Of a stretch of DNA of 39,740 bases, positions 2,921 to 34,103 are shown piece by piece (position 1 is the first letter of the stretch; each line of letters opens with the position of its first letter). Source of the DNA: an uncultured Methanobrevibacter sp. GTDB lineage: Archaea; Methanobacteriota; Methanobacteria; Methanobacteriales; Methanobacteriaceae. The DNA is taken from positions 1 through 39,740 of the forward strand of contig NZ_CACWVY010000020.1 of assembly GCF_902764455.1 (NCBI RefSeq), written 5' to 3'. A model generated the notes under the pieces. That model ran no database searches. It was not told the origin of the DNA and was given only the letters and a program-made list of their open reading frames with translations. Position numbers and translations under genes: made by a program.

Positions 2921-5900
2921 AACTATAATCAGAAAGTGAATCAATTACAGAAGCATTAACTTCATGTTCACCACAAGGATAACAATAAACATCCAAAATC
3001 CAAACAGTACCCTGTGAACTTTCATTATAGTCAATTGTTGGATTAATATTAAATTCCAAATCATTGACCTTAATAATATTGCCATTATCGTCATAAACTG
3101 TAGCATTTAAAGTCAAATTATCATAGATTAACAAATCATAATACTTTTCACCAGGAATAACAATTCTGGTTTTTGAAGTTATAGTACCATCATTATCAAT
3201 GTATTGAGATTTGCTTAATGTATTTTTGGATAAATATAACTCAGAATCTATTGATACGAAAATCGGATTGATTAAATTAACCTCATCAAACTTAGAGGAG
3301 TAAATCTCAGCATTGGAATCAATCAAGTTAACACAATAAGAACCTACATCACTGCCTTTGAAACTACTATTGTTAACAGTTAAAGTACTATAAAATGCGT
3401 TGATAATATTTGTATTATTTATAAATGTGGAATCTGAAATGAAAACATCATAAGCAGATTTCAAATCAACAACATTGGAATTATTGAGGAAATAACAACC
3501 CACAATTTCCACAGTACCATCAACAACAGATATCACATCAGCATTACTGATAAATGAAACATTATCGAAAGCAGCATATCCCCCATCAACAGAAACAGTA
3601 TTTTTGGAATTAACAATAGACACATCATATACAGCAACATATTCACCAGCAATATTAAACACACCGGCTTTATTTGAAGCATCTATGACATGTCCGTCAC
3701 CATCAATCTCAATGTGTGATTTTTTAATTAAAATTCCACTCTTAAGTTTCTCATCATAATCGTAATACCTGTAGTCATGCTGCAAAACAACTTTGCCATT
3801 AGCATTATTGATTAATTTCTGAAGAGCAGTAAATGAATCATCATCACAACTTACATTAAAGTAAACCTCTTCATTGACATTATAACAGGACATTTCCAGA
3901 TAACCTGGCCCAATACCGTCGCCGATAAACTCTAATTCGGCAACACCATCAATCAGTGTGGCCTCAGAAACATTGATGTCTCCACCAACACAGGACAAGT
4001 CAAAAGTGACTGGAATTATACCAGTGAATGTAGAATTAGTTCCTTTAGTTGCATCATACATATTGGTCAAGTTAAGAGTAATGATTGCCTTATCACCAAC
4101 AAACAAGTCGAATTTGGACACATCAACTGTTAAAAACAACCATTTATTTAATTCAACCTGGTCGCCTTCAACAACAGGAGCGACATCATAATCATCAATT
4201 GTATTTCCAAACCAGTTTTCATTCGCAGCAAACCAGAACGGACAATAAATTACAGAACCTGTTGAATTTAAAACAATTGAACTGGACAACTTATCGCCTG
4301 CAGCATTGGAATATATAACACTACCATTTTCCGCATAACCATTAACCAAAATGAAATTATACAATTCAATGGAATTAGTAGTAAGATTAAATAAACGGGC
4401 CTGATTTGCACCGTCAATCACATGACCATTACCATTGACCATCAAACTTTTATTAATCACAATACCGTTCTTCAAATCACCATCAAAGTTAGGGTAATAT
4501 TTATAAGACCTGTTTAAGACTATACTGTCATGAACACTTGCGTTATTGATAATTTCCTGCAATTTTGTAAATGAATCTTCAGGAACCCTAACTACATTAA
4601 ATGTAACTGTTTTATTAAATGAATAATATTTAAAATCAACACTTCCCACACCATCATTAACAGGCATGTAAGACGCATTGCCTTTGCCGTCAACCAATTC
4701 AAGCTTATCCAAAGCTACAGCATTATTGACAGATGAAACATCGAAACAAACAGCAGGAAGATTAGTTTCCACATCATAAACCTTCCGGGAGGTACGGTCA
4801 TAAGCATTATTCAGACTAACATTAATGACTGCGGATTCATCTATTTTTAAAAGAGTGCCGTTGGCATTGGCATCCAAAAACAACCATCTGTTCAATTTAA
4901 CGCTTGATTCGACATTAGGTTTAACATTGTAATTTTCATTGGTGTTTCCAAACCAGTTATAATCCGCATTAACAATGTCCTTGTTACCTGATGCGATGTC
5001 ATGAAGACAGTTGTTTTCTAGGAAAATTGAATAATGAACATCAGCAACATGAGAATTTAGAGTACCCTTAACACTAATAACACTATAATTTGCCCTATTT
5101 GACATAAACAAGGATTTATAAATCCTATTTAAATCATCGGGACTAGCATCGAGATAAATGGCGGCACCATTTTTAGCAGAATTGTTTACAAATACTCCAG
5201 TAACTGAAACCTCAGAAGAAATAGAAAGAATTGCACCACCTATTTTAGCAGCATTATTCACAAATATTGAGTCAATGACAACATTCTTAGATGTATCGAT
5301 ACTAATTGCGCCTCCACCATCAGCAGTATTATTAATGAATGTAGAATCGATAACAACATTATTGGATTCATATACCCTAATCGCACCTCCATCACCTAAA
5401 CCTACAATATTAGTGTTATTGACGAAAGTTGAATTAATCAAAACATTATTAGCCATAATCTGGACTGCAGAACCTTTACTGTTAATGAAAGTAGTGTTTA
5501 ATACTTGAACATCACCACCTGTGATTCTAGCAATATTTGCCATACATTTAGCATCTATTGTAAAACCGTTACCATTCAATATCAATGGTTTATCAATGCT
5601 TATATATCTGAGTTTAGAATCACAAGCTGGCATATACTCATAGTTGCGTGTCAGGTTTAAAACAGGACCTGCATTGTTAATCTGATACTGCAAATCTGAA
5701 AAGGAACCCGGCAGGAAATTTTCAACATAAAATGAGAAATTACAGGACAAATGACTTAAAGTCACAAAATTTGAACTATATGAATAATCAAACATGCCTA
5801 CACCTGAAACAACATCCACAAATCCAATATATTCCCCATTAGAAGAAACATTGAACCCAACATCCAAATAGGTGCTGTTTTCAATCTCTTGAGAAATTGC

Positions 5901-9101: not shown

Positions 9102-12100
9102 TTAACGTTTGACATTCAAAGTTGTTTTAACAGTGTTTTTTAGATAAATAACACTCATAGAGTATTTTTTACCTATTTTAAGTTTTTCAATAATATTTTT
9201 ATTTATTGTGAACTTAACAATTCCGTTCTTATTGGTTTTTGAGGTGAATTTTTTACCATTAAGTTTTAAAGTTATTTTTTTACCGCTGACTGCTTTTTTA
9301 CCATTCTTGAGAGTTGCCTTGATAATGAGTTTTTTAGAAGACTTTTTAACAGAATATTTCTTGGTTTTAAGATTTTGCTTTACTTTAACAGTTTTTTTGA
9401 CAGCATCTCCTTTGTAAGTTGCAGTTAACTTATATGAGCCTGGTTTTACTGTATTCGGTATTTTAAAAGCAATCATCCCTTTGGCATTGCTTTTGACCTT
9501 GTAAGTTTTTTTGTTAATCTTAATGGTCACTACTTTATTTTTACCGACTGGTTTGGCATTGTCATCAAGTATTTTCGCTTTAAACTTAGATCCGTCAAAG
9601 TAATACATTGCAACATTTTTCACATCTGAAAACCTTGAATAAATCACTATTTTAGTGGTTTTAATCTCACCTGTTTTTGGATTCTTAACTGTGATTTTTT
9701 GTGTTTTAGTCAATTTGGTGAATTTAAGAGTTATATATCCAGAATTATCCGTTTTATAACTTTTAGATTTTCCATTAACAGAAACAGCAACTTTAGTATT
9801 TTTTACAGAGTTTCCGGTAGAATCCACAATTCTAAATTTATAATTACAGTTAGCATTATAAGTTTTTTCAACATTGGAAGAAACAACAGTGTTTTTTATA
9901 ATGATGTAATTGACGATTGAATTTCCCTTGTAATTTGTTGTGATAGCGTACTTTCCAGGGTTAGCGTTGACTTCAAATTTAGCTAATCCATTTTCATCCG
10001 CTTTTACAGTGTGAGTTATTCCTTTGAATTCAAATATAACTTCTTCACCAGGACCGACTTCTGCAACAAACGGAGTTTCATTCTTATAGTATTTCACTAA
10101 ATTTTTAGTAATGTTTAAATCGGAAATGGTGTAAGCTTTTATAATAGCCACACTTTTATCTTTTGCCAAATCAGTCCAATTCTTACCGTCATCACTTACA
10201 AATGAAGTTCCCTTTTGAGTATGGATTCTGAGGTCATCAATAATAGGTGAATTATTTTTAAAGGTTATTCGGAAAACATCCCCTTTTTTGATTTGTACAT
10301 ATTTGTTTAATTTGATTGTTGAATATCCTCCGAATTCACTTGTGCCTTCATGAGAATAAACTTCAACATCATTTACAGATATTTTAAATTCGTATTTCAA
10401 TCCGGTTTTTTCAAAATATGTTCCAACTGCAGCAATTAATTCATCTTCATCAGCAGTAAACACGTTAGAATAATAATTGAAAGTAATACCCATAGATAAT
10501 TCTCCACCAACATCAATTTGATAAATCCTGTTGTAGGAATCGTTATTAATTATATATCCAACACTTTCACGATCTGTAGCAAATGATGTATCATAATATG
10601 AAACATAGAAATATCCGCCGTCAGCCCAGTTGGATCCCCAACTGTTTTTAACAATCCATGCGCCGTCACCTGGAGCGGTTTTTAAGAAATTATATCTGGA
10701 ATAAGTATCATCCCACCCCACAACACAAACTCTATGAGTTGATATTGTCTTACCATAATAATACTGTGCATAGCTTGATTCATTGAAATAAGCAGTTTTG
10801 TTAAAATCTGCATTGTGACTTACTGCCAGAGCACCATATTTAATCAGAGCGTTTTTAATCAAATCATTGTCCAGAGAGTTATTTCTTGGAGGAACAACAA
10901 CCACATTTTGAATGTGAATGTCCTCAGGTGTGATAAGCAATGAAGATATTTTACCAAGTTCGTCATAACTGTCATATTCACTTGGGAAAATCCCCATCCA
11001 ATCTATCAAATATGCTATAGGAGCAAAAGGAGTTCCTCCTTCTTCCGAATTCAACTGTCCATATTTTGAAAATTGAAGCATTGAATTTTGAACATTGTTT
11101 TCAGATAAAGAATAAGATACATTTGCATAACGAAGTAATGCTGACTCTAATGCGGCTACATTACCGAATGCCCAGCAAGAGCCCATGAATCCCTGGTTTT
11201 TAACAGGTGAAACCCAACCGTATTTCCTCAAATCAAATTTTTCAGGCAACTTATCAAATATCAGAGTGTTATTGATTATTATAAACGGATTTGCAGTATT
11301 TTCAAAATTATAGAAGTAATTAGTATTATCAAATGACCATTTATCATCATTGAAAGTATTTCCTTTGTCTATTACTTTTCCATATACTGTATATATGCTT
11401 GTAACATCAGAAGGATTGTTAAAGCAGTTATTTTCTAAAGTCAAATTAGTATCATATGCATAAACTGTTGATACTCCAAATGCTGCATTATTTTCAAAAG
11501 TGCTTTTCTCGATAATTACATTTCCCATATCAAAATAACCTGCACCACCATAAGATATGTTGTCTGATGCAGTATTGGATTTGAATGTTGAATTTGATAT
11601 CCTCACATCAACAAAACTGGTATAAATTGCACCGCCTTCATATTCTGCAACATTATCAGCAAAATTAGAATCTTTAACTATTAAACTTCCGCCTAATTGA
11701 AGAATAGCTCCACCAAATTCAGAATAACAGTCATGGAATTTGCTGTTTTGAACCATGACCTGGCCGTTTCCTTCAAACACATCTGCAAAAACCGCACCAC
11801 CATTTTTTTCACTGTAAACATTATCAAATTCACAATCAGAAATAGTTAACTTAGAAATTGATTTAACACTGATTGCACCTGCTGTTTTATTGGCAGACAA
11901 GTTTTTAAATTTAGAATTTAAAATTAAAATGTTTCCCTCACCAGTAGCAAAAATTGCAGTTGCATATTTAGAATCAGTATTTAAAAAATTAGAGTTCAAA
12001 ACAGTTAAATTTGAATTTTGTGAGTAAATATGGCCCTTAATGATTTTATCAGAACTGCTGGTGAATGTTGAATTGACAACATTGACAACACCCATTGATG

Positions 12101-12653
12101 AAGTAATTGAAGCCCCTTCCTCACCAGATGTATCAATAAATTTACAGTTATTTACATTTAAAGTTGCACCAGTGACAAGAACAGCGCCGCCGTTAAAAGA
12201 ACCAACCCCAGAACAGTTTATAAAAGTCACATTATTCAGGGTCAGCTTTGAGTAGGATATAATAGCGGAACCATATCCGTAAAAAGCATTTTTTATAATC
12301 AGATTGTTTATTTTCACATCTTTTCCAACAACCACAAATGCTCTAGCCTGATTAGAACAGTCTATTGCATGATTATTTCCATTGATTGTAAAATTTTCCT
12401 TAGCAATTCTAATTCCCCGATTATAATTCATATCACTTTGATTATCAAATTTATAATCGGATTCCAAATTAAAACTTGAATTTTCTAAGGCAATATCATA
12501 ATTTAAATCATAATAGGATTTAATATCACCATCATCTTTTAAAACATCACCCATATCACTAGTATCGTTTAAATCAGCAGCAGATATTGCAGTAATTGAA
12601 AACAATAAAACCAGCAATACAAGGGAATATAAAACAATTTTATTAAATTTCAT
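9102..12653 (-). CDS. Secreted adhesin-like protein with papain-like (C1A) cysteine peptidase domain
   Basis: The protein has about 1183 residues: a signal peptide (1-26), a beta-helix region (about 40-430), a papain-family domain (about 465-690), a lectin-like domain that often follows such peptidases (about 700-840), and three or four Lys-rich Ig-like modules to the end. Catalytic residues are all visible: oxyanion Gln487 and Cys493 in NQGFMGSCWAF, His640 in HRVCVVGWDD, and Asn670 in KNSWGSNW. It is therefore probably an active extracellular peptidase, perhaps acting on cell-wall peptide, host or neighbour proteins; the substrate is unknown. I chose the ATG at 12653 because GAGG lies six bases upstream; an ATG at 12659 and a TTG at 12665 are in frame. 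There is no transmembrane tail, so attachment must be non-membrane. It is a paralogue of the gene at 30204-33767. Confidence 0.88.
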   Translation of the reverse strand: MKFNKIVLYSLVLLVLLFSITAISAADLNDTSDMGDVLKDDGDIKSYYDLNYDIALENSSFNLESDYKFDNQSDMNYNRGIRIAKENFTINGNNHAIDCSNQARAFVVVGKDVKINNLIIKNAFYGYGSAIISYSKLTLNNVTFINCSGVGSFNGGAVLVTGATLNVNNCKFIDTSGEEGASITSSMGVVNVVNSTFTSSSDKIIKGHIYSQNSNLTVLNSNFLNTDSKYATAIFATGEGNILILNSKFKNLSANKTAGAISVKSISKLTISDCEFDNVYSEKNGGAVFADVFEGNGQVMVQNSKFHDCYSEFGGAILQLGGSLIVKDSNFADNVAEYEGGAIYTSFVDVRISNSTFKSNTASDNISYGGAGYFDMGNVIIEKSTFENNAAFGVSTVYAYDTNLTLENNCFNNPSDVTSIYTVYGKVIDKGNTFNDDKWSFDNTNYFYNFENTANPFIIINNTLIFDKLPEKFDLRKYGWVSPVKNQGFMGSCWAFGNVAALESALLRYANVSYSLSENNVQNSMLQFSKYGQLNSEEGGTPFAPIAYLIDWMGIFPSEYDSYDELGKISSLLITPEDIHIQNVVVVPPRNNSLDNDLIKNALIKYGALAVSHNADFNKTAYFNESSYAQYYYGKTISTHRVCVVGWDDTYSRYNFLKTAPGDGAWIVKNSWGSNWADGGYFYVSYYDTSFATDRESVGYIINNDSYNRIYQIDVGGELSMGITFNYYSNVFTADEDELIAAVGTYFEKTGLKYEFKISVNDVEVYSHEGTSEFGGYSTIKLNKYVQIKKGDVFRITFKNNSPIIDDLRIHTQKGTSFVSDDGKNWTDLAKDKSVAIIKAYTISDLNITKNLVKYYKNETPFVAEVGPGEEVIFEFKGITHTVKADENGLAKFEVNANPGKYAITTNYKGNSIVNYIIIKNTVVSSNVEKTYNANCNYKFRIVDSTGNSVKNTKVAVSVNGKSKSYKTDNSGYITLKFTKLTKTQKITVKNPKTGEIKTTKIVIYSRFSDVKNVAMYYFDGSKFKAKILDDNAKPVGKNKVVTIKINKKTYKVKSNAKGMIAFKIPNTVKPGSYKLTATYKGDAVKKTVKVKQNLKTKKYSVKKSSKKLIIKATLKNGKKAVSGKKITLKLNGKKFTSKTNKNGIVKFTINKNIIEKLKIGKKYSMSVIYLKNTVKTTLNVKR

Positions 12654-12853
12654 ATTCATCCTCAAAATAAATATACATAAATATATCTTTTAAAAAAAAT
12701 ATTTAAAATTATTTAATATACTTAATTTTAAAAAAGAAATAAACTGAATTAACACCAACATTAACTCTTTAAAATCAGGAATATGAGAGAATTTAAAAAA
12801 AAGTAAAAGAGTTATTAAATAACCCTAAAATTTAAAAAAGAAGATTTAGGAAC

Positions 12854-14560: not shown

Positions 14561-16495
14561 ATGCTTAAAAAACTATTTGACAATAAAAAATTCATTTTTA
14601 TTTTCACTTTTACAGTGGAATTTATCTTATATTATTTTTTTGAGCATATGCCCTTTGGAGGAGAGTATATAATCGCCGATGTTGGTATTGCTCCTGTTTT
14701 TGGAATGATGTTTGGTCCTATTGGAGGTTTAGGTCAAGCCCTAGCCAGTCTTACCTGGCAGCTTTTTGAAGGGGCAGATCCAAGAGCAGCATTAATTGAT
14801 TTTACAATAATGTTCTTTATATCCATACTTGCATACAAATTATGGTATACGACCTTTAAAGAAAAGACAATCAACACCCCAAAATTCAATTCAACCTATA
14901 ATATATTTAAATTTTTAATTATAGCTTTGATTCTTGCAATTGTCTATTGGGCATTAATATACATATCATTTGAAGCATATCCCAAAATGTATATAATTTA
15001 TCCATTATCAAGCTTTATTAAACAGACATCATATGCCTTAAATCTGTTTAATTTCACTTTAATATTCGGAATATTCTTCATCAGCATTTTCAACATAGAA
15101 GAATTGCCTATGCAAACACCTAGAAAATGGATAAATCTCATTGATATCAACAATAAATATTTTATAGTAGGTTTTATACTGTTACTGGGCTATCTGATTA
15201 TTGTTCAAGCATTCCACATTGACAACAGTATTACAGACAACATATTCTTTGGAATGACTCTCGTTATGGCAATATTATTCTGCATAAACAAGTTTGAAGC
15301 AAATATAGAAGTAAGAGTCATTAAGTACTCAATCATTGAAAAAATTATACTATTTTTCTTAATAATACTGTCCATTCTATTTATCGTCCTTTTTGATGAA
15401 CTAATTACAATAAGTATGATTTTTACCTACAACTTCAATGAAGATTACATTCAGCTATTCAATTTATGCTTTGGAAGCGGACTGATGATTCTCTTTTGCA
15501 TATTCCACATTTATTATGTTGAAAAGACAATAACCAATCCGATTTATGAACTAATCGATTCACTAAAACAATACAGAAATGATAAAGATTCTGAGCATGA
15601 TGAGAATCACACTAAAAAATTCGAAAAATATCTGAAAAACAACGATGACATGACCAAATTAATTGAATCATTTATCACATTAAGCAACAACATTGAAAAC
15701 AATTTAAATAACCTCGAAAGAACAACTGCAGAAAAAGAGAAAATTGAAACTGAGTTTAAAATTGCAAGCAATATTCAATCAGGAATGCTAAAAACAAACT
15801 TTGATGAATTCTCCAATAACAAGCCTTTCGAAATTTATGGATTAATGAAACCTGCAAAAGTAGTTGGAGGAGCATTTTATGACTATTTTGACATGGATAG
15901 TGATAATGCTGCTTTCGTTATTGGAGATGTAAGTGGAACAGGGGTCCCTGCAACATTATTCATGGTCAAAACCATGCAACTAATTGAAAACCACAGTAAA
16001 TTCAATTCTGATCTCGAAGAACTTTTTGAAAAGGTTAATGATTTAACCTGTAAGGGAAATGACGATAACCTGATTGTTACATCATGGTTTGGAAAATTAA
16101 ATTTCAAGAGCGGAAAATTAAGTTTTGTTAATGCCGGACACAATCCTCCATTAGTCAAACATGACCATCAGGATTTCGAATTTTTGAAAATCAAACCGGA
16201 TATAAATATAGGAAGCACAGAAAATACCAGTTATAAAAAACATGAGATAGATTTAAGTCCTGGAGACATGTTGTTTTTATATACTGACGGAGCAACAGGG
16301 AAAAAGAATAATCCAGAATCCTTTTACACCGATAACCTCTTGAGAGAAACAGTAAACAAATATAAAGATGAAAATCCAGAAAATATAATTAAAAGCATTG
16401 AAACTGATTTATATCAAGTTTACAATTATGATAATCCTAAAGATGACATTACAATGCTGGTAATAAAATATAATGGTTGTGAAAGTTATGAATAG
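14561..16495 (+). CDS. Membrane SpoIIE/RsbU-type PP2C-like protein, probably degenerate at the metal site
   Basis: A 644-aa protein with about eight transmembrane helices (residues 10-330), a short linker with a coiled-coil-like segment (about 370-410), and a C-terminal SpoIIE/RsbU phosphatase domain (about 420-640). The domain keeps GDVSGTG (Asp456), NAGHNPPL and DDITM (Asp628, Asp629). Two expected residues differ: the metal-binding Asp of the usual GGDFYD motif is Ala438 (GGAFYDYF), and the TDG.TE motif reads TDGATG with Gly580. It may therefore be weak or inactive as a phosphatase. GGGAT lies just before the ATG. It overlaps the following paralogue by 8 bp. The N-terminal membrane half may be a sensor. 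No anti-sigma or STAS partner is visible in the window. Confidence 0.85.
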   Translation: MLKKLFDNKKFIFIFTFTVEFILYYFFEHMPFGGEYIIADVGIAPVFGMMFGPIGGLGQALASLTWQLFEGADPRAALIDFTIMFFISILAYKLWYTTFKEKTINTPKFNSTYNIFKFLIIALILAIVYWALIYISFEAYPKMYIIYPLSSFIKQTSYALNLFNFTLIFGIFFISIFNIEELPMQTPRKWINLIDINNKYFIVGFILLLGYLIIVQAFHIDNSITDNIFFGMTLVMAILFCINKFEANIEVRVIKYSIIEKIILFFLIILSILFIVLFDELITISMIFTYNFNEDYIQLFNLCFGSGLMILFCIFHIYYVEKTITNPIYELIDSLKQYRNDKDSEHDENHTKKFEKYLKNNDDMTKLIESFITLSNNIENNLNNLERTTAEKEKIETEFKIASNIQSGMLKTNFDEFSNNKPFEIYGLMKPAKVVGGAFYDYFDMDSDNAAFVIGDVSGTGVPATLFMVKTMQLIENHSKFNSDLEELFEKVNDLTCKGNDDNLIVTSWFGKLNFKSGKLSFVNAGHNPPLVKHDHQDFEFLKIKPDINIGSTENTSYKKHEIDLSPGDMLFLYTDGATGKKNNPESFYTDNLLRETVNKYKDENPENIIKSIETDLYQVYNYDNPKDDITMLVIKYNGCESYE

Positions 16496-18365
16496 AATTA
16501 GAGAACTTTTTAAATCAAATAAATTCAAGATATTATTCGCAATGGCCATGACTTTTACAACAATAATATTTTTCAATATTGTTGATTCCACCTCAGAAGT
16601 GAATCTTGAAATTGCCATTATGCCTGTTTTATGTCTATTATGGGGTCCTTTTGGAATCTTAGGATTTATTATAGTAGAAAGCATATATCTTCTTGTATTT
16701 GACCCTCATGACGCACCATATGTCCTAAAAGTAATCATTATATTTTGTATATGCAACATGTTAATGTGGAAATTATGGTATTCCACAATGAACAGAGACG
16801 GTATGGAAATTCCAAATTTTAACAAATTATACAATATAATTAAATTTTTAGCCATCTTTTTGATTTATGTGGCAGGACTATATATTTTACTAAACGGACT
16901 GGTTAAAGGACAATACGATGTTAAGAATTTACATGACAATATAATAATATTATCACCGTTAAGCATACTGATTATGATAATAGGAATACACCTTGCAATC
17001 AAATATAAAATACCAGTATACACTCCAAAAGGATTGAAACAGGTTTTGCCTAAAAAAGTTTATCCAATTCTACTAATTGCTGCAATCATTATCGGAATGG
17101 TAAATACAATATCCGATAACAATGCCTTTGATTCAACAATAATAAGTATTTTAGTAATGGTGCTCATGATAATCTATATAACAAAACCATTTGGAGAGAA
17201 TTATACAATAAATGAAGATATTAACATAAATTTATTCAATAAAATTAATTCCTCCCTATTTTTACTATTGTTAATCCTTCTTGCAATAACCACTTTGCCA
17301 CTATACGTATTTATTCCGGGCATAATAACTCCAACAGACGTACTTAGCAATTTTGCATACATTATTGAGCAGTTTATATCATTAATCATAATTCCAGTTT
17401 TAATTTATATGTATTATCTGGAAAAAAATATGACAAAACCTATCAACAAACTAACCAAATCATTATCCCGAAATATAACCACACCCCAGGATTATCAAAA
17501 ACTTAACGAAGATTTAAATTCAATAACAGTTAACAATGAACTAAAATCCCTTGCAGGTTCACTGCTTGAAATGGAAGAAGATTTGAATCTTTACAGAAAA
17601 CAGCTGGTTGAAGTTACATCTCAAAAGGAGAGATTTGAAACAGAGATGAAATTGGGCCATGATATACAGGATTCCATGATTCCAAAAAATTTTGAAGAAT
17701 ATAACAATGGCGAAAAATGTGAAATTTGGGGTATGATGGAACCTGCACGTGAAGTTGCAGGCGATTTTTATGACTTTTTCAAAATAGATGATGACAATAT
17801 CGGATTTGTTATTGGAGATGTTAGCGGGAAAGGAATAACCGCCTCACTGATTATGGTTAAGGCAATGACATTAATCCAGGATTATGCAATACACTTCGAA
17901 GATCTTTCAGATGTATTTTATGAAGTAAATAACCTGCTCTGTGAAGGAAATGTTGAAAATCTCTTTGTCACATGCTGGCTTGGAAAAATAAACTTCAAGA
18001 CAAAGAAATTATCCTACGTTAATGCAGGCCATAACCCTCCATTAATCAAACAAAATGAGAATTTTGAATATTACAACATAAACCCCGGAGTAGTTTTAGC
18101 TGCAATGGAAGATATGCCTTATGAAACAAATGAACTCCAATTAAAATCAGGAGATGCAATAATTTTATATACTGACGGAATAACAGAAGCAAATTACAAC
18201 TATAATGATTTTTACGGTGAAGAAAGATTGAAAGACATTTTAAATAAACATAAAAATGATGATCTGGAAAAGATAATAACCTCCGTGAAAAAGGACATAG
18301 ATGATTTCTGTGAAAATCAGGAGCAGTTTGATGACACAACAATGTTTGCAATTAGACTGAAATAG
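16488..18365 (+). CDS. Membrane SpoIIE/RsbU-type serine/threonine phosphatase
   Basis: A 625-aa paralogue of the preceding protein with the same layout: about eight transmembrane helices, a linker with coiled-coil character, then the SpoIIE/RsbU domain. All metal-site motifs are intact: AGDFYDFF (Asp426), GDVSGKG, NAGHNPPL, TDGITEA (Asp563, Glu567) and DDTTM. It is thus expected to dephosphorylate a Ser/Thr phosphoprotein, probably in response to a membrane signal; the target is unknown. I chose the ATG at 16488 because it aligns with the paralogue's N-terminus; an in-frame ATG at 16473 would add five residues. The overlap with the upstream gene indicates one transcript and coupled translation. 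Confidence 0.88.
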   Translation: MNRIRELFKSNKFKILFAMAMTFTTIIFFNIVDSTSEVNLEIAIMPVLCLLWGPFGILGFIIVESIYLLVFDPHDAPYVLKVIIIFCICNMLMWKLWYSTMNRDGMEIPNFNKLYNIIKFLAIFLIYVAGLYILLNGLVKGQYDVKNLHDNIIILSPLSILIMIIGIHLAIKYKIPVYTPKGLKQVLPKKVYPILLIAAIIIGMVNTISDNNAFDSTIISILVMVLMIIYITKPFGENYTINEDININLFNKINSSLFLLLLILLAITTLPLYVFIPGIITPTDVLSNFAYIIEQFISLIIIPVLIYMYYLEKNMTKPINKLTKSLSRNITTPQDYQKLNEDLNSITVNNELKSLAGSLLEMEEDLNLYRKQLVEVTSQKERFETEMKLGHDIQDSMIPKNFEEYNNGEKCEIWGMMEPAREVAGDFYDFFKIDDDNIGFVIGDVSGKGITASLIMVKAMTLIQDYAIHFEDLSDVFYEVNNLLCEGNVENLFVTCWLGKINFKTKKLSYVNAGHNPPLIKQNENFEYYNINPGVVLAAMEDMPYETNELQLKSGDAIILYTDGITEANYNYNDFYGEERLKDILNKHKNDDLEKIITSVKKDIDDFCENQEQFDDTTMFAIRLK

Positions 18366-24025: not shown

Positions 24026-24074
24026 TTTATATACCCCATCCGACAATGCCAATAATACAAAATATCTAGAGGTG
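24026..24074 (+). promoter_or_regulatory. TATA box and ribosome site deciding a TTG start
   Basis: TTTATATA at 24026-24033 is a good archaeal TATA box. It would start transcription near 24055. GAGGTG at 24069-24074 lies five bases before TTG at 24080, which supports TTG as the real start of the surface protein because the encoded MKRKILTILT is a proper signal peptide beginning. Confidence 0.65.
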
Positions 24075-24079
24075 AAAAT

Positions 24080-25153
24080 TTGAAAAGAAAGATACTCACT
24101 ATATTAACCATATTTCTTATTGCAACATCAGGTTTAAGTTTTGTTTCAGCACAGAATGAACTTGATGATATTTTAATTACAGAAAGCGAAGAAGAAAATA
24201 ATGAAAGCAGATCAATTAGACAAAGAGAAACATCTGAAGACAGCCTAAACTTAGCCGAAGAGAGAAATTCACATGAAGACAGAACCGGCGAGGAAGTAAA
24301 GGCACTTGAAAGCGGATACAGAAACGTGTCTTTTGATGACGGATACAACGGTTATTGTGTTAACCATAACTTACAATCCACCAGCAGAGGAGAAAAATTC
24401 ACCGTAGAAAATACTACAAATATCATCAGTTCAAGATACGGAGAATCTGTTGGAAATTACCTGAAAATCTTATTTGTTGACCATTACAACTATACAATGA
24501 ACCCAACAACTGACCTGTCACAAGTAATTTGGACTTTTACCGATTATGATTACAAAAACAGCAACAATGAAATAATTAAATCAATATTGGAAAGTGCTTC
24601 AAATGGCAGAATAATTCCAGATCATGGAGCAGTAACCAAAATAAATAATACAACCGAAGCAATATTTGATTTTGAATTATTAAATTCACAATATGGAAGA
24701 ACTCAGAACTTTTTCGGATACAAAATCAACTATCGTACACTAGAAATCATTGAAGATGAAATTTTAGGTTCAGACCCTGAAAATAATACTACAATAGAAA
24801 ACAACACAACAACAAACAACAATACAGAAAAAACCCCACAAAACAACACAACAATAGAAAACAACACAACAACAAACAACAATACAGAAGAAAACCCACA
24901 AAACAACACAACAATAGAAAACAACACAACAACAAACAACAATACAGAAGAAACCCCACAAAACAACACAACAATAGAAAAACAGGAAAATAACACAATT
25001 ATTTCAAAAACTAATGAAAATCAAACACCAAATTTAAATAAAATTAAAGAAAGTGATTTGGCAAAATATAATACTGGAAATGAATTAACAGTGATTGGAA
25101 TCGCAATTCTAATTATAGGATTTATATTATTGATTAAATACACAAGAGATTAA
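24080..25153 (+). CDS. Anchored surface protein with candidate Cys-Gln thioester domain and Asn/Thr-rich stalk
   Basis: A 357-aa protein starting with TTG. A signal peptide covers residues 1-24 (FVSAQ cleavage). An acidic, charged segment (25-80) precedes a globular region (about 80-230) with GYNGYCVNHNL (Cys93) and LSQVIWTFTDYDY (Gln148). The YC plus [ST]QxxIW pattern is that of TQXA/thioester domains, in which the Cys and Gln side chains form a bond that lets bacterial adhesins attach covalently to host surfaces. Next comes an Asn/Thr-rich stalk of 20-aa repeats full of N-glycosylation sequons (about 235-300), then a transmembrane helix (about 332-353) and a short basic tail. So the protein is predicted to be membrane-anchored with its head outside. 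The thioester assignment is inference from motifs; spacing of 55 residues between Cys and Gln is on the short side. Confidence 0.8.
   Translation: MKRKILTILTIFLIATSGLSFVSAQNELDDILITESEEENNESRSIRQRETSEDSLNLAEERNSHEDRTGEEVKALESGYRNVSFDDGYNGYCVNHNLQSTSRGEKFTVENTTNIISSRYGESVGNYLKILFVDHYNYTMNPTTDLSQVIWTFTDYDYKNSNNEIIKSILESASNGRIIPDHGAVTKINNTTEAIFDFELLNSQYGRTQNFFGYKINYRTLEIIEDEILGSDPENNTTIENNTTTNNNTEKTPQNNTTIENNTTTNNNTEENPQNNTTIENNTTTNNNTEETPQNNTTIEKQENNTIISKTNENQTPNLNKIKESDLAKYNTGNELTVIGIAILIIGFILLIKYTRD
24782..24980 (+). repeat. Three 60-bp tandem repeats plus a partial copy, encoding an Asn/Thr-rich stalk
   Basis: The unit is exactly 60 bp (20 codons), with near-identical copies at about 24782-24840, 24841-24900 and 24901-24960 and a partial fourth to 24980. 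Each encodes NNTTIENNTTTNNNTE plus a short Pro-Gln linker. Near-identity at DNA level suggests recent slippage, so copy number probably varies among strains. Confidence 0.9.
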
Positions 25154-26356: not shown

Positions 26357-26595
26357 CCGAATTGGAAAGTCCTGAAAAAATAGCAAAAGATATTGCAAAA
26401 TTAGAGAGAAACTTGAATCAGGTAGCTGACATTACTTTTGAAGGAAAGGAAAAAGAAGTTTATGACAGGGCAATTGACTACTGGAACGATTCAAAATATT
26501 ACCTTAAAAAAGAGGATATGAGGACTGCATTCGGTTGCATCGAATACAGTCACGGGCTTTTGGACGCATTGAGGATGATTCATGGAATCATCTAA
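26353..26595 (+). CDS. DUF357 family protein
   Basis: An 80-aa, largely helical, soluble protein that matches the small archaeal DUF357 family (long amphipathic helices, YDRAIDYWNDSKYYLKKED and FGCIEYSHGLLDALR). Function is not known. I chose the ATG at 26353 because GGAGG lies about eight bases upstream and it overlaps the previous stop by 4 bp, so translation is coupled to the phospholipid synthase. It converges on and overlaps the RhuM gene by 4 bp. Confidence 0.88.
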   Translation: MTELESPEKIAKDIAKLERNLNQVADITFEGKEKEVYDRAIDYWNDSKYYLKKEDMRTAFGCIEYSHGLLDALRMIHGII

Positions 26596-27617
26596 TCCTC
26601 AAAACCTTCTATCCTTTTAATATCTTCGATTAACTTATCGAAATCAGACTGATAAATCTTATCCTGAATAACTTTAAATTTCTCATATTCTCCTTTTGCA
26701 ATTTTTTGAGCATCGTTTGATGAAATTTTGCCATTACCTTCCAAAATAGGCAATAGATTTAAATTGATATAATCATCCAAGACCTTTTTCCAATCTTCCA
26801 TAGCCATTGGAATTTCATTTAGTGCACGAGACTCTGCAAGGGTTAAAAATCCATCAACCAATGAATTTAAACGATTTAATTCTCTTTCGTTCAAATAATT
26901 TTTAGATATTACAACATCACTTAAAATGATTTTTCCATTCTGATTGCTCCAATTAGTTAATCCCATGTTAATTTTTTCGCTATTACACCTTTCAGCAATT
27001 ATTTCTGCCGCAGTATGGTTGCTAACTGCATATATTAACTTATTTTGAACATTTGCGAAAAATTCTCGGGTTAGTTGAGCATCCTTGTTGTAATCAAAGC
27101 TTGTTGCATAGATATCCGTAATTTTTTGATTGAATCTTCTTTCAGATGATCGTATATCCCTTACCCTTTCAAGCAGTTGGTTGAAATAGTCAATTCCAAA
27201 TCTTGAGCCATTTTTCAATAACTCATCATCCAAAACAAAACCTTTGATTATTAATTCTTTTAATTGCTGAGTAGCCCAAATTCTAAAGCGTGTTGCATTT
27301 TTAGAGTTAACTCGGTACCCTACTGATATAATAGCATCTAAATTGTAGAAAGTAGTTTTTCTTTTTACTTTACGATTTCCTTCATTTTGAACATGTGCAA
27401 TTTTTGCACAAGTTGAACTTTTAATCAATTCACCAACATCATATATATTTTTTAAATGCTTTGTGATTACAGAACGGTCAACACCAAAGACTTCAGCCAT
27501 TGTCTTTTGAGTTGCCCAAAATGTTTCTCTTTCAGGATCAACAATCACATCCAATGACACTTTACCTTCATCACCCACATATAATAAAGTTTTTTGTATT
27601 TGATTTTCTTCTTGCAT
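26592..27617 (-). CDS. RhuM family protein
   Basis: A 341-aa soluble protein of the RhuM family, named from a Salmonella pathogenicity island. The N-terminal half has a likely DNA-binding KilA-N/Bro-like region (FWATQKTMAEVFGVDRSVITKH, followed by FYNLDAIISVGYRVNS) and the second half is helical with conserved family segments (DYNKDAQLTREFFANVQNK and RALNEIPMAMEDW). The molecular function is unknown; relatives sit in mobile or defence-rich accessory loci, sometimes near Fic-type genes. Here it stands alone, so it may have been acquired by transfer. Full length, no frameshift. Confidence 0.88.
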   Translation of the reverse strand: MQEENQIQKTLLYVGDEGKVSLDVIVDPERETFWATQKTMAEVFGVDRSVITKHLKNIYDVGELIKSSTCAKIAHVQNEGNRKVKRKTTFYNLDAIISVGYRVNSKNATRFRIWATQQLKELIIKGFVLDDELLKNGSRFGIDYFNQLLERVRDIRSSERRFNQKITDIYATSFDYNKDAQLTREFFANVQNKLIYAVSNHTAAEIIAERCNSEKINMGLTNWSNQNGKIILSDVVISKNYLNERELNRLNSLVDGFLTLAESRALNEIPMAMEDWKKVLDDYINLNLLPILEGNGKISSNDAQKIAKGEYEKFKVIQDKIYQSDFDKLIEDIKRIEGFED

Positions 27618-30182: not shown

Positions 30183-30208
30183 AGGTGTTAGAGAGTTTAA
30201 TCTCTAAC
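30174..30208 (-). terminator. Hairpin plus T-run terminator of the second peptidase-adhesin
   Basis: GTTAGAGA (minus strand, pairing 30201-30208 with 30187-30194) forms an 8-bp stem with a six-base loop, overlapping the stop codon. It is followed by ACC and a run of ten Ts (30174-30183). Confidence 0.75.
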
Positions 30209-33200
30209 GTCTAACATTAAGAGTTGATTTTACAGCATCATTAAGGTAACTTACCTTAACTGTGTATTTTTTGACTTTCAATTTATTGATAGCTGCTTTT
30301 TTGATGGTTACTTTAGCAATTCCCTTTTTGTTGGTTCTTGCTTTGTAAGTTTTACCATTAACTTTGAATTTTACAACTTTGCTTTTAAGTGCTGTTTTTC
30401 CTTTTTTAAGGGTTGCACTTAATACAAGTTTCTTAGCTGATTTTTTAACAGTTACAGTCTTTTTGGTTTTTAATACCTGTTTTACTGTTAATTTGTTTTT
30501 AACTGTTTGACCTTTGTAGGTTGCAGCTATTGTATATTTTCCAGGAGTAACTTTGGAAGGTATTTTCAATATTGCATATCCGTTTGCATTGGTTCTTACC
30601 TTGAATGTCTTTTTGCCGATTTTAATGGTTACCAATTGGTTTTTACCTGCAAATTGACCGTTATCAGCCCTTACACGTACCTTGTATGAGTGTCCGTCAT
30701 AGTAGTACATGTTCACATTTGAATTTCCGGCAAATCTGGACAGGACATTTATAGTTATCCTTAATTGTTCACCAGTTTCTGGATTTGCATAGTCAATATA
30801 ATGTTTTCCTATTTCGTTTTTTGGGTCAATACCAATAGTCAATGTACCATTTGCATCAGTTTTTGCTCCTTTGATTACTTCATTGTCAAATTTAGCAGTT
30901 ACTAAAGTATTTGCAAGAGGAGTTCCATTAGAGTCAAAGAACTGCACAGTGAATGAGCTTTTGGCGTTGTATGCCACGTTCATGCTTTTTTCATCATCAC
31001 TGAATATGGTTGTTTTTACCAATACCATGCTTGAGAATGTTTGATTTTTGTATGTTATAGTTACAAGGTATTCTCCGGCAGGTAAAACTCCCAATGATAT
31101 GCTTCCAGTTCCGTTAGATATTTGTATAGTGTAATTTTTATCTTGGAAACTGGCTTGAATGATGTCGGCTTCTGTAACATTGTAAACTGTAAATATGGTT
31201 TCATTATTATCGAAATATTTCACAACATCTTTTGTAATTACAGGACTGTGGTAAGTGTATGCCTTAACAGAAGCAACCATATTTTTATTTGAAAGATCAA
31301 CAAATTTACCGTTATCCACCGCATAATTTACACCGGTCATATGTGCAGTTCTCATTCCTTCAACATATGGCATTGAAGAGGATTGGATTCTGATTTCAAA
31401 TGTAGAATTAGGATCCACTGCAACATATTTATCCAATTTGATGGTTTCATATCCTGCATGAGTTGATTTTCCACTTTGGCTGTAAGCTACACGATTATTA
31501 AGGAATATTGAAATAGTATATGGAGTATTTGCATTTTCAAAGTAAGTTCCAACAGCAGCAATTATGTCTCCGTTTTCACTTGAATATATCTGTCCGTATG
31601 TATCGTAATTGTAAGAGTAGCCAGAAATTCCGTTCACTTCATTTTGGTATAGTTTTTCATAGAATTCAACATTATCAAAGGTGAATCCTACTGCATTCGC
31701 TTTCAATGACGCATCATAGTATGAAATGTAGAAGTATCCTCCATCTCCCCAGTCGGTTCCCCAGCTGTTTTTACAAATCCATGCACCGTTTCCAGGAGCA
31801 GGAGTTGAAAATTTGTTTTTTGAGAAGTTATCATCCCAACCAACCAAAGTAACGTAATGGTTTCCATTGTATTTGGAGTTGTATATTGACTTGTATTTAT
31901 TGCTGTATGACGGATCTCGTGAATCTGCACCGTATACAAATAGGTTCAATGCACCATATTTTGTTAAATATTGCTTAATGGCATCCATATCATTTATATC
32001 TATGTAAACGGCATTTACTGTACGGTATGCACCATCAGGACTATAAGGTATTTTGGAAATTTTTCCAAGCTCATCATATGAGTCCTCTAATGTATTTGTT
32101 GCTCCAAACCAGCTTACAAAGTAAGCAGCAGACATATGCAATGTTCCGCCTTCAATTTCCTCAATCATTCCATAAATGGAATAACGCAGACCGAGGTTTT
32201 GAATATTATTTTCGGAAATGTCTATTTCTTTTCCGGTTGCAATTAAGAAAGAGGATTCAAATGCACCTGCTGCTCCAAATGCCCAACATGAACCCATTGA
32301 ACCTTGATTTTTAACAGGAGTAACTAATCCTAAATCATTTAAATTGAAATATGAGTCCTTTGCAGAACCGTTAATAGGTCGTGGATCCAATATGATTTTT
32401 TCCCCATTGTATCTTACGATATAGTTAAAGCTTCTGTCATCTATTGTGCTTGTGTATTCACCACAGTTTGTTATGTTGGATCCCTCATCATCAAATCGGG
32501 TGTAAATATCTTTGCCGTTGTTTTTGAACTGTGAATTCATGATTTTATATTGTGTGGAATAACTGTAAATCGCCCCTCCTTCGCTTGCAACATTGTCTGT
32601 GAAAGTACAATTGTCAATTGTTGCGATTTCAAAGTCAAGAAGTACAGCACCACCATATCCATCATTTTCATTTGCTTTATTGTTAGTGAATGTGCCTTTG
32701 TTTATAATTACAGTTGCATTTGAGGTATATATTGCCCCTCCATTTTCATTTACTATATTGTTTGTGAATGTGGAGTTGGTTACAATAAGGACCCCACCTA
32801 ACTGAAGTAATGCTCCTCCAAACTCTGCAGAGTTTTTGTCAAACAATGTATTTTGGATATTAACTAATCCTCCATTACAATTGGTTCCGTCACCGTTAAT
32901 GTCTGCAAAGATAGCTCCACCATTTCGGGCAGCACTGACATTTATAAATTCACACTCATCTACAGTTAAATATGTATAATTGGTCGGATTTCCGCCTTTG
33001 ATTGCAATAGCTCCGGCAGTCGCATTGGCTGTCAGATTAATGAATTTTGATTTTTTGACTGTTGTTAAACCTGAGTTGTATATTGCAGTTGCATATTTTG
33101 AGGCAATGTTTGCAAAAACACTGTTTGAAATCTCTATATTACTGCTACTTCCATAAATCAAACTCCAGGTTATTGGATTTTTGTTTGTAAATGTTGCATT

Positions 33201-33767
33201 ATCCATAACTAATTGAGAGTCCTTTGCAAATATTGCAGACCCTGAACCCTGTGCAGAGGCGTCAATAAACCTGTCGTCAGTACTGTTAAACTCACCACCA
33301 CTGCAGTATACCGCACCTCCAAAATCAGCAGAATTTGTATTCATGAATGTTACATTGACAGTAACAAGTCCTGAATTTACTTGAATTGCACTGTCATTTG
33401 TATTTTTCAAAATGAGATTTTTTAAAGTTAATGTGCCTTCGGATACTTTAAACATGAATGTTTTACCATCGGCATCAATAACATGATTGTTTCCATTTAT
33501 TGTAAAGTTATCTTTAAATTCAATATACTTTATAGTGTCTTTTTCATCATATTTGTAATCGTTTTCTAAAGTTATTGCATCATCTGTTTTATTTATTGCA
33601 TCAAATAAATCAGTGAATGACTTTTCGGAAGCATCAGAAATGACATCTTGTGTATCCGTCAGTTCCAAGGTGTCCTGTGCAGTCTGATTTGCATCTTCAG
33701 CACAAACTACTCCCATGGTCAGTATCAATAAAAATAGAAAGATTACAGATGACTTGATTAATTTCAA
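30204..33767 (-). CDS. Secreted adhesin-like protein with papain-like (C1A) cysteine peptidase domain
   Basis: This 1187-aa paralogue of the 9102-12653 protein has the same architecture: signal peptide (about 1-23, GVVCAED), beta-helix (about 40-430), papain-like domain (about 465-690), lectin-like domain (about 700-840), then Ig-like modules with a Lys-rich end. Catalytic residues are Gln488 and Cys494 (NQGSMGSCWAF), His637 (NHYVTLVGWDD) and Asn667 (KNSWGTDW), so it should be active outside the cell. The start is TTG at 33767, because AGGAGAG lies just upstream and the signal peptide begins there; the longer in-frame extension to 33869 crosses the promoter. It diverges from the DUF3781 gene. 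Confidence 0.88.
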   Translation of the reverse strand: MKLIKSSVIFLFLLILTMGVVCAEDANQTAQDTLELTDTQDVISDASEKSFTDLFDAINKTDDAITLENDYKYDEKDTIKYIEFKDNFTINGNNHVIDADGKTFMFKVSEGTLTLKNLILKNTNDSAIQVNSGLVTVNVTFMNTNSADFGGAVYCSGGEFNSTDDRFIDASAQGSGSAIFAKDSQLVMDNATFTNKNPITWSLIYGSSSNIEISNSVFANIASKYATAIYNSGLTTVKKSKFINLTANATAGAIAIKGGNPTNYTYLTVDECEFINVSAARNGGAIFADINGDGTNCNGGLVNIQNTLFDKNSAEFGGALLQLGGVLIVTNSTFTNNIVNENGGAIYTSNATVIINKGTFTNNKANENDGYGGAVLLDFEIATIDNCTFTDNVASEGGAIYSYSTQYKIMNSQFKNNGKDIYTRFDDEGSNITNCGEYTSTIDDRSFNYIVRYNGEKIILDPRPINGSAKDSYFNLNDLGLVTPVKNQGSMGSCWAFGAAGAFESSFLIATGKEIDISENNIQNLGLRYSIYGMIEEIEGGTLHMSAAYFVSWFGATNTLEDSYDELGKISKIPYSPDGAYRTVNAVYIDINDMDAIKQYLTKYGALNLFVYGADSRDPSYSNKYKSIYNSKYNGNHYVTLVGWDDNFSKNKFSTPAPGNGAWICKNSWGTDWGDGGYFYISYYDASLKANAVGFTFDNVEFYEKLYQNEVNGISGYSYNYDTYGQIYSSENGDIIAAVGTYFENANTPYTISIFLNNRVAYSQSGKSTHAGYETIKLDKYVAVDPNSTFEIRIQSSSMPYVEGMRTAHMTGVNYAVDNGKFVDLSNKNMVASVKAYTYHSPVITKDVVKYFDNNETIFTVYNVTEADIIQASFQDKNYTIQISNGTGSISLGVLPAGEYLVTITYKNQTFSSMVLVKTTIFSDDEKSMNVAYNAKSSFTVQFFDSNGTPLANTLVTAKFDNEVIKGAKTDANGTLTIGIDPKNEIGKHYIDYANPETGEQLRITINVLSRFAGNSNVNMYYYDGHSYKVRVRADNGQFAGKNQLVTIKIGKKTFKVRTNANGYAILKIPSKVTPGKYTIAATYKGQTVKNKLTVKQVLKTKKTVTVKKSAKKLVLSATLKKGKTALKSKVVKFKVNGKTYKARTNKKGIAKVTIKKAAINKLKVKKYTVKVSYLNDAVKSTLNVRR

Positions 33768-33810
33768 TTTAATCTCTCCTATATTTTGTACAATACTATA
33801 TACCATATTA

Positions 33811-33860
33811 TTATATAAATAACTAATCATACAATTAATTTTAATACAAAATAAGGTGAT
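33811..33860 (+). promoter_or_regulatory. TATA box and ribosome site of the DUF3781 gene
   Basis: TTATATAAAT at 33811-33820 is a good TATA box; transcription would start near 33842. AGGTGAT (33854-33860) precedes the ATG at 33864. On the other strand the same AT-rich segment lies about 45 bases before the TTG start of the adhesin, so the region probably drives both genes. Confidence 0.5.
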
Positions 33861-33863
33861 AAA

Positions 33864-34103
33864 ATGCATAAGAATATACTTTTAGAAAATGTTGATAAAA
33901 TTCATACAACAGAAATGGGAGTTGGAAGGATTCAGAAAAATTTAGGCATTAGTGAAGAACCTGTAAGCTATTGCATTTCAAAATTAAAACAGGAAAATTC
34001 TTCTGTTACAAAAGAAGGTAAAAATTACTATGTCAATGTTGATGACTGCATAATTACCATCAATTCCAGCAGTTTTACAATAATAACTGCACATAAAAAA
34101 TAA
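33864..34103 (+). CDS. DUF3781 family protein
   Basis: A 79-aa soluble protein with the DUF3781 pattern: IHTTEMGVGRIQKNLG, then YCISKLK, KEGKNYYVNVDDCIITIN and a terminal FTIITAHK. The N-terminal half is helical and the C-terminal half beta-stranded. Function is unknown in the family. It diverges from the adhesin-peptidase gene and a decayed copy lies on the far side of that gene, in the same orientation. Confidence 0.85.
   Translation: MHKNILLENVDKIHTTEMGVGRIQKNLGISEEPVSYCISKLKQENSSVTKEGKNYYVNVDDCIITINSSSFTIITAHKK

Follow-up and report, generated by a model that had tools for sequence, protein, structure and literature searches.

A predicted thioester-domain surface protein in gut Methanobrevibacter, with a candidate Cys93-Gln209 bond

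The stretch of DNA analyzed here (the window, 39,740 nucleotides from the genome of an uncultured Methanobrevibacter sp.) carries at 24080-25153 a gene for a 357-aa protein, the parts of which are listed in Table 1. The gene is real, and its neighbors in the window encode RadB, an aminotransferase, Sua5/YrdC, a CDP-alcohol phosphatidyltransferase and an RLI/ABCE1-type protein. An acidic linker leads from the signal-peptide-like N-terminus to the head, Cys93 is the sole cysteine of the protein, and 19 of its 25 NxS/T sequons fall in the stalk region. A preliminary description of this DNA had proposed a thioester-forming head, with Cys93 (in GYCVN) and Gln148 (in LSQVIWTF) as the bonded pair, on a sequon-rich repeat stalk with a C-terminal membrane helix; both residues are present in the translation, and the repeat array, its sequons and a C-terminal hydrophobic helix were all found.

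Table 1. Features of the gene and of the 357-aa protein that it encodes (coordinates in the window)
Feature	Position	Strand	Basis or remark
Whole gene, 357 aa	24080..25153	+	TTG start; GAGGTGA at 24069-24075 just 5'
Signal-peptide-like N-terminus, residues 1-24, ending FVSA	24080..24151	+	Sequence and hydropathy; similar N-terminus in complete relatives
Head, thioester-domain (TED) family domain, ~155 residues (about 70-225)	24287..24754	+	AlphaFold pLDDT 89.5; best PDB match is a TED; PF08341 matches of relatives
Cys93 in [YF]C-Phi-zeta motif (GYCVN), predicted thioester cysteine	24356..24358	+	Conservation among 133 domains
Degenerate helix motif S147-Q148-V-I-W151 (canonical TQxx[IV]W)	24518..24532	+	Alignment; PMC4450167, PMC6194298; helix in AlphaFold model
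Gln209 in TQNFF (PhiQ-zeta-Phi-Phi-type motif), predicted thioester glutamine	24704..24706	+	Position, conservation, tree
Stalk, 60-bp repeat in 3.4 copies, NNTT sequons abundant	24780..24981	+	Repeat finding, sequence
TGNE-hydrophobic helix-KYTRD C-terminus, residues 332-357, anchor or sorting signal	25073..25150	+	Sequence; recurrence in relatives

The gene adjoins radB in 12 of the 13 loci compared, and in 11 of these 12 it lies between radB and sua5 (at the L035 locus the contig ends inside the gene). Such a conserved radB-TED-sua5 arrangement marks this as an inherited chromosomal gene rather than an assembly artefact, and vertical inheritance at a fixed locus across the genus is supported by computation. 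Close copies come from gut Methanobrevibacter assemblies; searching with the head returned matches in 54 of the 67 genomes of the genus, and by profile search 75 of 139 Methanobacteriaceae genomes, belonging to 4 of 17 genera, contain the domain family. The source genome holds two further copies, one in a protein of 1940 aa that has both Cys and Gln (MCFE ... SQSLF), the other in a 419-aa protein with Ile and Ser.

The 357-aa protein itself gave no sequence-profile match in Pfam, NCBIfam or the PDB, and none to a TED even at E 10, so that the PF08341 comparison suggested in the preliminary description came back empty for the protein itself; a PF08341 search of the source genome also returned no TED. 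The fold and the relatives point to the family. In a structure search of the PDB with the AlphaFold model, the single convincing match of the head was the Clostridium perfringens thioester domain 5a0d (probability 0.99, TM-score 0.43), which bears out the fold part of the proposal, and for the canonical relative L026 (pLDDT 88.8) the Cpa and C. perfringens thioester domains occupied ranks 1-11 at probability 1.00, with the other listed rows at <=0.23. Among 20 near relatives of the head, 15 match the Pfam TED family (PF08341) at E<=0.1, several of them over the curated cut-off, and within the genus 12 genomes have matches over that cut-off, 11 of them on homologues of the head, so databases may already label some members. 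Over 125 columns, a profile built from the 89 members with both Cys and Gln is collinear with nine bacterial-type TEDs (pairwise E 6e-4), the Cys positions and the TQxxIW motifs of the two sets coinciding; against class II TEDs, the local alignment of profiles stops before the Gln strand. When the PDB was searched by profile, the near-relative alignment (A3) found no TED, and a wider alignment (A1) found the Cpa TED 4c0z at E 0.09, with unrelated chains at similar E. That the head is instead an unrelated archaeal surface domain, its Cys and Gln motifs TED-like by chance, would sit well with the lack of a sequence-profile match for the protein itself, with the modest TM-scores (0.42-0.45) and with the implausible company of relatives' Pfam matches at similar E-values (e.g. 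Tudor_krimper), but we regard it as very improbable, since three largely separate lines concur: relatives' Pfam TED matches over cut-off, a fold search in which no fold but the TED scored well, and the collinear profile-profile alignment. Computation supports the assignment of the head to the TED/TQXA family, as the preliminary description had it, and as a short, class-I-like member. The strongest PF08341 match in the genus, L090 (G034:C41:3721-4098), was rejected as archaeal evidence; it resembles SpaA-type pilin TEDs of Clostridia, and is probably bacterial contamination of the assembly.

In TEDs, the thioester is formed between the Cys of a [YFL]C-Phi-zeta motif and a strand Gln within a weak PhiQ-zeta-Phi-Phi motif, and the Gln of a further motif, TQxxPhiW, lies on a helix beside the bond, where it is neither the thioester partner nor required for the bond (Walden et al. 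2015, PMC4450167; Miller et al. 2018, PMC6194298). Conserved Cys93, in GYCVN, conforms to the first motif and stands as the candidate nucleophile that had been proposed. The second is represented by Q-N-F-F at Gln209, with Thr in front of it where the motif has a hydrophobic residue, and the equivalence of Gln209 to the strand Gln of class I TEDs rests on position and conservation, not on direct alignment. In homologues the helix motif reads TQxx[IV]W, which places Gln four positions ahead of Trp, and is intact in most near relatives; the 357-aa protein departs from this pattern, which is common but not essential in TEDs, having LSQVIW, with Ser147 at the canonical helix-Gln place and Gln148 three residues before Trp. 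The column of Gln148 holds Gln in 13 of 133 members and mostly Lys, His, Asp or Asn, with Glu in the 85%-identical orthologue L006. A Cys93-Gln148 thioester, with its partner Gln on the helix, has in its favor the presence of both residues in this protein, and we give it almost no credence: Gln148 is one residue off the motif, its column is unconserved, and solved TEDs do not use the helix Gln as partner (PMC4450167, PMC6194298), so register, conservation and literature together led us to reject the pair. The same two studies rule out a further candidate reading, in which the Gln four residues before Trp is the partner and the clade of the 357-aa protein is thioester-dead.

Across 133 distinct domains, Cys93 and Gln209 occur together in 89, neither occurs in 34, Cys is found without Gln in nine and Gln without Cys in one, Cys being present in 98 in all; the nine belong to a single subfamily, in which another Cys stands two positions beyond the site of the lost Gln. 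When these columns were withheld from tree building, the tree showed one change at Gln209, seven at Cys93 and ten at the helix Gln, and the drift of Cys is almost confined to the clade that follows the loss of Gln209. Such drift of Cys after Gln is what a bonded pair predicts, and as a pattern in sequences it rests on one main loss of Gln and amounts to no formal proof. By mutual information Cys93-Gln209 ranks 174 of 9870 pairs and is not singled out, with Cys93-Gln148 at 5887; a sign test on independent pairs for co-loss of Cys93 and Gln209 had no power. The predicted bond-forming glutamine is almost certainly Gln209, not Gln148, and the conservation among orthologues that was to be expected of a reactive pair fails for Gln148 and holds for the corrected pair, Cys93-Gln209.

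The fold might also be retained without a working thioester, in which case Cys93 and Gln209 would serve packing or non-covalent binding, with adhesion itself non-covalent. A sister clade of 43 rows, in which Gln209 has been lost, Cys has mostly gone too and the fold persists, suggests that the fold can be useful without the bond, and the clade of the 357-aa protein has lost the helix Gln beside the reactive site. We consider this unlikely, though well short of negligible, as Cys93 is kept in 89 of the 90 domains that bear Gln209, over great divergence and while other positions change, and as the helix Gln is reported to be non-essential for bond formation (PMC4450167).

In long relatives, the largest of which reach about 2000 aa, the domain precedes DUF11/DUF7507 repeats and in many cases follows a beta-helix region; DUF11 is an isopeptide-bonded stalk domain (PMC12617251). 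By analogy, these proteins may be the archaeal counterpart of bacterial TIE (thioester-isopeptide-ester) proteins, with which they share a TED-like domain on DUF11/DUF7507 isopeptide-type stalks; they differ in also having beta-helix regions, and the 357-aa protein differs in that its stalk is of low complexity and not Ig-like. In four long adhesin-like examples (L086, L077, L074 and L054), a TED-like domain occurs with DUF11/DUF7507 stalks and an xTGNP C-terminus, and usually with beta-helix regions as well. Four genomes from three other genera of the family encode class-II-like TEDs (L208-L211), which contain an Ig-like insert and are accompanied by DUF11-like repeats; they have a KQNLV/KQSLT motif at the expected Gln site, and in a profile of these domains the Gln region aligns with the bacterial QDVV motif. 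A plasmid search with an archaeal class-II-like TED returned Ig-like domains only. The C-terminus of the 357-aa protein reads NTGNE-helix-KYTRD, the TG being kept in relatives and LP absent, and most complete TED relatives end in a (K/H)xTGN(P)-hydrophobic-short basic sequence, which looks like a sorting signal lacking LP. One sortase is encoded in the source genome (G000:C2:92635-92955).

Compared with class I TEDs (e.g. SfbI, Cpa and CpTIE; PF08341), the archaeal domains share the fold, the [YF]C-Phi-zeta cysteine, the C-terminal Q-zeta-Phi-Phi strand motif, the helix TQxxPhiW in most archaeal relatives, and a head-stalk-anchor layout with a signal peptide, whereas the 357-aa protein is archaeal and shorter, has Ser in place of the helix Gln, and has a predicted bond only. 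In contrast to Gram-positive adhesins it has a sequon-rich repeat stalk, and a TGN-helix C-terminus instead of LPXTG. It resembles the adhesin-like proteins (ALPs) of Methanobrevibacter and Methanosphaera, which are also secreted, anchored, repeat-bearing surface proteins of gut methanogens; in 2024 the ALPs of M. smithii and M. stadtmanae were surveyed structurally (PMC11532034), with beta-helix, Ig-like and anchor domains described and no occurrence of the word thioester. Thioester chemistry in archaea has also been proposed for alpha2-macroglobulin/TEP homologues (PMC8416519), which differ in having an all-helical thioester domain of unrelated fold with a CxEQ motif; the 357-aa protein has no CxEQ, and no alpha2-macroglobulin/TEP fold appeared among the PDB matches listed. 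Adhesin-type TEDs have been reported as exclusive to Gram-positive bacteria (PMC4450167). In the open-access literature we found no paper joining "thioester domain" or "TQXA" with Methanobrevibacter, nor, among the open-access papers that treat thioesters and adhesins together with archaea or methanogens, did we meet a report of the TED family of this head.

In our reading, the gene quite likely encodes a secreted, anchored Methanobrevibacter surface protein, the TED head of which forms a Cys93-Gln209 thioester for covalent attachment. This is the best explanation of a fold family, residue pair, architecture and inheritance that were computed, and from these we infer bond formation, reactivity, covalent attachment and glycosylation. 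The protein would be exported and anchored to the membrane or wall on the surface of gut Methanobrevibacter, its head, carried on a probably glycosylated repeat stalk, most likely forming the internal thioester; a nucleophile of the target, probably a lysine of a surface protein of a partner microbe or host, would then open the thioester, leaving an isopeptide bond from the target to Gln209. Since a rumen methanogen gains by holding hydrogen-producing bacteria or protozoa, a host target is not to be assumed, and such partners are at least as plausible as the host. M. ruminantium co-aggregates with Butyrivibrio, and six of its adhesin-like proteins are upregulated in co-culture (PMC2812497). 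More broadly, gut Methanobacteriaceae may possess old, vertically kept thioester adhesins, both short stalked and long TIE-like, for covalent attachment to microbes or host, with some paralogues having lost the bond and kept the fold, a proposal that we think about equally apt to hold or to fail. With the domain family present in 75 genomes and the reactive pair in most members, covalent adhesion in archaea becomes testable by mass measurement, and a concrete mechanism is offered by which hydrogen-consuming methanogens of the rumen and gut may hold their partners, a matter of relevance to methane mitigation.

Several further features of the relatives and of the window were observed. A tandem paralogue lies directly upstream of the TED gene in many relatives (L005:226-1194, L007:226-1167, L006:1013-1936, L012:223-1254 and similar), and none lies there in the window. 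These paralogues have Ser at the Gln209 place and a new Cys two residues on (SDCLAYK), and in those that keep Cys93 a disulfide might replace the thioester. One relative, L028 (G011:C36:9474-9947), contains several in-frame stops and is an apparent pseudogene. On the reverse strand of the window, 9102-12665 and 30204-33869 encode a pair of large proteins of surface type, which bear papain-like protease and lectin-like domains and resemble adhesin-like proteases reported for M. ruminantium, and 26592-27617 encodes a RhuM-family protein beside the conserved block; on the forward strand, 14561-18365 encodes two adjacent proteins with SpoIIE-type phosphatase domains.
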